From the NCBI GenBank assembly GCA_019244185.1, contig JAFATB010000009.1:1-64000 (forward strand): DNA of 64,000 nucleotides. Direction: 5' to 3'. Positions within the stretch are counted from its first letter, which is position 1. Each line of letters opens with the position of its first letter. This document shows positions 61,610-62,988 of the stretch, in pieces. Source of the DNA: Acidobacteriota bacterium (GTDB lineage Bacteria; Acidobacteriota; Thermoanaerobaculia; Gp7-AA8). Made by a program: the position numbers and the translations under genes. The notes under the pieces were generated by a model. It saw only the letters and a program-made list of their open reading frames with translations. It was not told the origin of the DNA and did not search any database.

Positions 61610-62791
61610 ATGGCTCGCAGGCCACAATGGATTGACGCACGCGAGGCGACCCGTCTCCTCGGCGTGAGCCGCGCGACGTTGTACGCGTACGTCAGCCGCG
61701 GCTACCTGCGCTCGGAGCCGGTGCCCGGCAAGACGCGCGAGCGCCGCTACGCGCGCGAGGATGTCGAACGCCTGCGCAGCCGCGCCGAGGAGCGGCGCAA
61801 TCCGGAGAAAGCAGCGGAACATGCGCTGCGCTGGGGCGTGCCGGTGCTCGAGTCGTCGATCACGCTGATCGCCGACGGGCAGCTCTACTACCGCGGCCAC
61901 GACGTCGTGGAGCTCGTGCATACGCGATCGCTCGAAGAAGTCGCGGCCCTCGTCTGGACCGGCTCGTTCGAAGCGGACATCTTCGATACGCCGCTCCACG
62001 TCGTCGGTGGCGGCGCCGCGCACGATCTGCCCTTCATCAGCCGTGCACAATCCGTCCTCCCGATCGTCGCCGCGCGCGATCCGCTCTCGTTCGACCTCCG
62101 TCCGAAAGCGGTCGCGCAGAGCGGCTGGCGCATTCTCAATCTGCTCACCAGCGTCGCCGCTGAATCGCAAACGCTGGAGGCGACGATCGAGGAGACGCTC
62201 GCACGCCGCTGGGCGCCGAAACAGAAACGCGCCGCGGACCTCATCCGCGCGGCGCTGATCGTCTGCGCCGATCACGAGCTCAACGTCTCCGCCTTCACCG
62301 CGCGCTGCGTCGCCTCCGCCGGCTCGAATCCGTACTCGGTCGTCGTCGCCGGCCTCGCCGCACTCGAAGGCACGAAACACGGCGGCGCCACCGCACGCGT
62401 GGAAGCACTCTTCGACGAGCTCCGCCGCGCCCGCGATCTCCGCCGCGCTCTCGCCGAACGCCTCCGCCGCGGCGATCCCATCGAGGGCTTCGGCCACCCG
62501 CTCTATCCCGAAGGCGATCCACGCGCACGCCTGCTGTTCGATCTCCTCCCGAAGTCGAAGGAGCTGACCTTCGCCCGCTCTCTCGCCAACGCCGCGAGCA
62601 CGGTCCTCGGCGAAGAACCCACCGTCGATTTCGCCCTCGTCGCCTTCGCCCGTGCGTTGGGACTCCCGCACGGCTCCGCCCTCACCCTCTTCGCCATCGG
62701 CCGCACGATCGGCTGGATCGCCCACGCCATCGAGCAATACGAGCAAAACGTGATGATTCGGCCACGTGCTCGGTACGTGGGGCCGCGGTGA
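61610..62791 (+). CDS. Citrate synthase with N-terminal MerR/excisionase-type HTH domain
   Basis: WIDAREATRLLGVSRATLYAYVSRGYLRSEPVPGKTRERRYAREDVERLR followed by citrate synthase domain (GFGHPLYPEGDPRARLL). Confidence 0.92.
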   Translation: MARRPQWIDAREATRLLGVSRATLYAYVSRGYLRSEPVPGKTRERRYAREDVERLRSRAEERRNPEKAAEHALRWGVPVLESSITLIADGQLYYRGHDVVELVHTRSLEEVAALVWTGSFEADIFDTPLHVVGGGAAHDLPFISRAQSVLPIVAARDPLSFDLRPKAVAQSGWRILNLLTSVAAESQTLEATIEETLARRWAPKQKRAADLIRAALIVCADHELNVSAFTARCVASAGSNPYSVVVAGLAALEGTKHGGATARVEALFDELRRARDLRRALAERLRRGDPIEGFGHPLYPEGDPRARLLFDLLPKSKELTFARSLANAASTVLGEEPTVDFALVAFARALGLPHGSALTLFAIGRTIGWIAHAIEQYEQNVMIRPRARYVGPR

Positions 62792-62988
62792 GGGATGACG
62801 ATGGGGACGACGAAGGGCCTCCGGCGGGCCGGCGCGGCCGGCACCGCTAAGGGCTTAGCCGAGACGCACGTGCGGCTGCAGTCAACGACGTTAACCGCGA
62901 CCGCACGTGCGTCTCGGCTAGGCCCTTAGCGCCGCCGGCCTCGCCGGCCCGCCGGAGGCCTCTCGTCGTCCCCGTCGTCATCCCCTCA
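62789..62988. repeat. Dispersed imperfect palindrome, copy B, spanning stop codon to stop codon between convergent genes
   Basis: Arms TGAGGGatgacgaTGGGGACGACGAaGGGCCTCCGGCGGGCCGGCG... and its reverse complement; homologous to 22701-22866. Confidence 0.92.

Follow-up and report, generated by a model that had tools for sequence, protein, structure and literature searches.

A REPIN-like family of long palindromic repeats situated behind gene 3′ ends in an Acidobacteriota genome

The window, which is the whole 64,000-nucleotide stretch of Acidobacteriota DNA that was analysed, contains two copies of a long palindromic repeat, here called copy A and copy B (Table 1). Copy B occupies the gap between a citrate synthase-like gene, which has an HTH upstream if its start is at 61595, and an M20 family peptidase gene on the opposite strand. 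The inverted repeat begins with the TGA that ends the citrate synthase-like gene (62789–62791) and extends to the TGA of the peptidase gene (62986–62988, minus strand), as an earlier note on this DNA had described, and the arm sequences quoted there are correct. The two arms of copy B are 96 nt long each, with a complementarity of 89%. In RNA folding, copy B forms a single hairpin of -198.4 kcal/mol (z -21.2), and none of 200 shuffled sequences folds as well. The core of copy B differs from the family consensus at eight positions. Copy A is positioned between two codirectional genes. The EamA transporter stop next to it reads TGAGGG, as noted earlier; its other side, 35 nt before the start of the aldehyde dehydrogenase gene, is not a gene end.

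Table 1. Positions in the window of the two palindromic copies, their parts, and the adjoining genes
Feature	Position	Strand	Pfam
Aldehyde dehydrogenase gene, start 35 nt from copy A	21291..22667	-	
Copy A, codirectional genes on either side	22703..22868	.	
EamA transporter gene, stop adjoins copy A	22869..23720	-	EamA PF00892
Citrate synthase-like gene	61664..62791	+	Citrate_synt PF00285
Palindromic copy B including outer arms, stop codon to stop codon	62789..62988	.	
Copy B left outer arm, locus-specific, contains the stop of the left gene (TGAGGGATGACGATGGGGACGACGAAGG)	62789..62816	+	
Copy B conserved core, 143 nt, from anchor GCCTCCGG to its complement	62817..62959	.	
Copy B right outer arm, locus-specific, complementary to the left arm, contains the stop of the right gene	62960..62988	-	
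M20 family peptidase gene	62986..63999	-	Peptidase_M20 PF01546

The genome from which the window originates (5.3 Mb in 26 contigs, 98.9% complete) contains 40 two-armed copies of the repeat that could be placed. A search with the arm pattern adds approximately four short doubles and 11 single arms (half-copies), giving a family of about 55 whole or half copies. Every arm match examined is a double or a half, in a scan that covered the arm matches themselves. Alignment of the copies defines a 143-nt consensus core, which is nearly invariant from the anchor inward and to which the core of locus L038 is identical. The core is formed by two units of about 71 nt arranged head to head, which together make one near-perfect hairpin. 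The two halves of the core differ from each other at fixed places, suggesting that the copies descend from one asymmetric master. The flanks of the element are symmetric and not clearly duplicated, as judged from a search for target-site duplications.

The base pairs of the long hairpin covary, with 44 alignment cells changed on both sides, compared to 13.7 in shuffles. Each arm additionally contains mini-hairpins, and the mini-hairpin pair 17/29 is switched as a unit within an arm; in loci L048 and L060 this switch costs pairing in the long hairpin. The single arms terminate at the centre of the palindrome. Eight of the ten half-copies that were fetched lie 8–18 nt behind a stop codon, in one fixed orientation with the outer end always toward the gene.

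Searches for the family in the congener G001 yielded no copies, and those in the other relatives yielded none apart from two weak partial matches. The family is also absent from 84,980 species genomes, from which the window's own records were excluded, save for four unrelated chance matches. No Rfam model matches the element above its gathering score, and the best sub-threshold matches are models of long-hairpin miRNAs. The combination of a private family and near-identical copies points to recent spread. Y1/RAYT transposase (PF01797), the sole mobiliser family looked for, was not found in the genome, and the control genomes were positive. A possible autonomous element would have ends resembling AGGGA..GACGAGGAGCGCC.

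The copies are unevenly distributed with respect to genes, as called by a purpose-written codon-usage gene caller. Twenty-seven of the 40 copies are positioned between convergent genes, ten between codirectional genes, and three between divergent genes. Across 864 kb of the same genome, convergent pairs account for 100 of 689 neighbouring gene pairs (14.5%), and convergent gaps contain 18% of the intergenic bases. The bias towards convergent gaps has p-values of 4e-14 against gene pairs and 8e-12 against intergenic bases. The tie to stop codons extends from the window to the whole genome: 56 of the 64 adjoining stops lie 1–37 nt outside the core, and the coding sequences of the remaining eight genes extend into the core, where a TAG or TAA codon ends them. 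The distances to the two stops are symmetric in ten of the 27 convergent copies (p 0.0016). Native convergent gaps in this genome have a median length of 10.5 nt, so a copy that spared both genes would necessarily span from stop to stop. Short convergent gaps and the survival of insertions that spare both genes thus explain the stop-to-stop fit, and the family shows how "stop-to-stop" palindromes originate from compact convergent gaps.

The earlier note had further proposed that the element targets stop-codon contexts or supplies the stop codon itself. The gene tails were compared with orthologs in the congener G001 and in genomes G002, G009, and G011. In most of the compared genes, the protein ends where the ancestral one did (for example HIGG*, IVENI*, REEAA*, or RGYYP*). 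At copy B, the peptidase ends in NVSRL* and its congener ortholog in NVSKM*, placing the stop at the ancestral position; the citrate synthase-like protein ends in RYVGPR*, and its relatives end in RYVGEKPA* or RYVGQTPE*. A minority of genes are shortened or extended into the element (L036, L041, L046, L047, L066, and L067). At the L036 locus of the congener, which is only about 80% identical to the source genome, the 3′ ends of the genes overlap and no long palindrome is present. The ortholog tails rule out supply of the stop by the element for most genes, and the adjoining stops are mostly the genes' own.

The TGAGGG sequence, found at all three gene ends that touch the element in the window, is present at only seven of the 64 adjoining stops in the genome, compared to 1.4% of all stops, and is therefore enriched but not a rule. 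The kernel of truth behind it is an AGGGA motif near the ends of the element. This motif occurs near 18 of 56 adjoining gene ends (32%), compared to 1.6% of ordinary ends, and overlaps the final stop bases in approximately 13 cases. The enrichment indicates that some stops may owe their final one or two bases to the element. The identity of the stops is not significantly matched between the two arms (p 0.08). Some arms do not adjoin a stop at all: in codirectional copies one arm, and in the three divergent copies both, point towards the start of a gene. The proximity to stops, the enriched motifs, and the symmetric stop distances fit an element that targets stop codons by sequence or supplies them, but the ancestral position of most stops, the gene starts faced by some arms, the unmatched stop identity, and the outer arms, which are unlike between loci, make this explanation very improbable. 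Stop proximity itself holds; sequence targeting or stop supply is unsupported as a general rule.

The element is probably a lineage-private, REPIN-like miniature palindromic repeat that spread in trans and survives behind gene 3′ ends. It would have multiplied by transposition in trans, with the Y1/RAYT enzyme missing from the present genome, and its copies survive mainly just behind gene 3′ ends. The stops are native; in a minority of genes, the element contributes either the end of the stop codon (one base or two) or a short tail reached by readthrough. Once in place, the hairpin would most likely act as a two-way barrier or 3′-end protector between genes, in RNA or DNA; survival alone, without any function, could also account for the positional bias. 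A domesticated family of bidirectional terminators, kept by selection and no longer or never mobile by itself, would likewise be expected to have a strong convergent bias, covariation that maintains the hairpin, and half-copies mostly kept behind stops. The congener also has other structures in the orthologous convergent gaps, namely a plain hairpin, its own 62-nt palindrome family, a CATCCTGAGC..GGATGA repeat, or overlapping genes, and the palindromes among them would suit such a role. Nevertheless, we consider domestication as a terminator unlikely. The hairpin lacks a U-tract and does not qualify as a canonical intrinsic terminator; a scan for intrinsic terminators called none. Most convergent gene pairs in the genome have very short gaps without the element, and the evidence for recent spread also argues against this reading.

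Outside the core, the sequence of the element varies from locus to locus, yet within a locus the left arm is complementary to the right one, far beyond pairs of arms taken from different loci. In six to eight loci, the complementarity passes the stops and enters the coding tails of both genes, and it can reach a length of 60–80 nt (L033, L038, L049, and L058). This locus-specific continuation of the inverted repeat beyond the core, and into coding tails, may be a new feature. Restricting the comparison to coding sequence beyond the two stops gives a score of 8.4 within loci, versus 4.8 between them (permutation p 5e-5). No excess complementarity is seen in 52 convergent pairs that lack the element (6.9 against 6.6); because these pairs equal the null, a general selection of convergent genes for complementary tails was rejected. 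These observations would be expected if insertion was directed by structure, with the element entering the centre of imperfect palindromes (as a hairpin or cruciform) that straddled gene ends, so that the old palindrome became the locus-specific outer arms. Such insertion concerns the choice of site and is compatible with the REPIN-like reading. It has precedents in REP dimers located inside longer palindromes (PMC3733652) and in insertion sequences, which REPs attract, in one case at the symmetry axis (PMC1525189). Near-consensus copies also tend to have more complementary flanks, with L038 scoring highest, but this relation to copy age is a trend that does not reach significance. However, orthologous tails in the relatives, which are distant, contain no clear dyad; in the mean across loci, a strong excess is limited to 10–30 nt out and becomes faint beyond; and about half of the sites have none. 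We regard structure-directed insertion as a nearly balanced possibility.

The same complementarity could have arisen after insertion, if template switching or hairpin-primed repair copied one flank to the other side and the palindrome grew outward into the genes. The match is best beside the core and fades outward, and the distribution of flank-complementarity scores is bimodal. As read by eye, both tails at L049 depart from their orthologs toward each other, and the left arm at L051 resembles the native tail and stop of the right gene. But in most copies the consistent mismatches between the left and right core halves (such as AGTA/TAGA) have escaped homogenisation, complementarity does not increase with copy age, and the tails of both genes are still recognisably native. 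Arm extension is accordingly the less probable course and on present evidence rather unlikely. Mainly for the reason that the fixed core mismatches are not homogenised, we tentatively favour insertion at dyad centres over later copying of arms. We propose tentatively, and with some doubt, that the insertion site was set by structure, at the dyad centre of gene tails including their stops, or that the palindrome was extended by copying the tails across. The complementarity into coding tails offers a way to test, in bacteria, whether insertion is directed by structure or palindromes grow.

The earlier note knew of no described family with this relation to stops, but such properties are known from GTAG REPs, conv-REPs (PMC3733652), and BOX elements (PMC3049150). 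GTAG REPs often provide a TAG stop, and conv-REPs, which are REP dimers in convergent gaps, lie at most 20 bp from both ORF ends (PMC3733652). The present family resembles REPINs and GTAG REP doublets of Pseudomonas and enterobacteria in having two inverted units that form one hairpin and many extragenic copies (PMC3116915, PMC3733652). As in REPINs, solo units coexist with doublets, and REP singlets derive from REPINs (PMC3116915). Like GTAG REP doublets, the copies are scattered through the genome near gene 3′ ends and in convergent gaps, and sometimes contribute to the stop (PMC3733652). Unlike REPINs, whose units are 20–60 nt long, the present units have about 71 nt with internal mini-hairpins, and the genome has no Y1/RAYT transposase. 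There is also no conserved GTAG tag, as 15 of 76 outer arms contain GTAG and its place in them varies. CGTC REPs similarly form head-to-head dimers near 3′ ends (less than 20 bp away in convergent pairs), have no known dedicated transposase, and are in some cases located inside longer palindromes (PMC3733652). However, they have a stem of 8–9 bp that starts with AT pairs and a loop of 4–5 nt, in contrast to the GC-rich arm of about 71 nt in the present core, and the CGTC tag and unit are absent from the present consensus, as compared by eye with their published description (PMC3733652).

BOX, RUP, and SPRITE of pneumococcus are also small palindromic repeats over-represented between convergent genes, and BOX elements encode the stop codons of 36 pneumococcal genes (PMC3049150), similar to the stops that may be partly element-derived here. 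Their sequences are unrelated to the present one, and SPRITE has a U-rich tract, which the present element lacks. A general survey of bacteria found stem-loops preferentially between convergent genes and within 50 bp downstream of stops (PMC1590033), a preference shared by the present family, but it contains no such long private family. Because there is no GTAG or CGTC tag and no Y1 transposase, the family is filed as REPIN-like and not as REPIN. No description of it was found in the literature searched, and it extends the known repeats by a large, private REPIN-like family that has neither a GTAG tag nor a RAYT.

Other palindromes and repeats are present in the genomes compared. The congener has a palindrome family GAGTGGTGCGCGCC..GGCGCGCACCACTC of about 62 nt with at least 40 copies (centres of L173–L192), many young copies of which are located inside genes according to the gene caller; it was rejected as a parallel since it also occurs outside convergent gaps. 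CATCCTGAGC..GGATGA repeats (L081:1160–1710, L082, and L091) fill convergent gaps of relatives at sites where the source genome carries a copy of the present element. At L121 of the congener, in a position orthologous to L040, the convergent gap after the stop of the left gene is filled by one more long palindrome, TTGTGGTGACCGCTGCCCT..AGGGCAGCGGTCGCCACAA. The window itself has a 219-nt convergent gap (38712–38931) with two identical 45-nt GC-rich palindromes TGCGCGCTGCAGTTGACGCGGCGCTTCGCGCCGCGCAACTGAGCG (38720–38764 and 38869–38913), and heptamer-like tandem repeats (TTCTGCG / TTCTTCA) at 48080–48152 and 50161–50272, which form inverted pairs with 40-nt hairpin arms.
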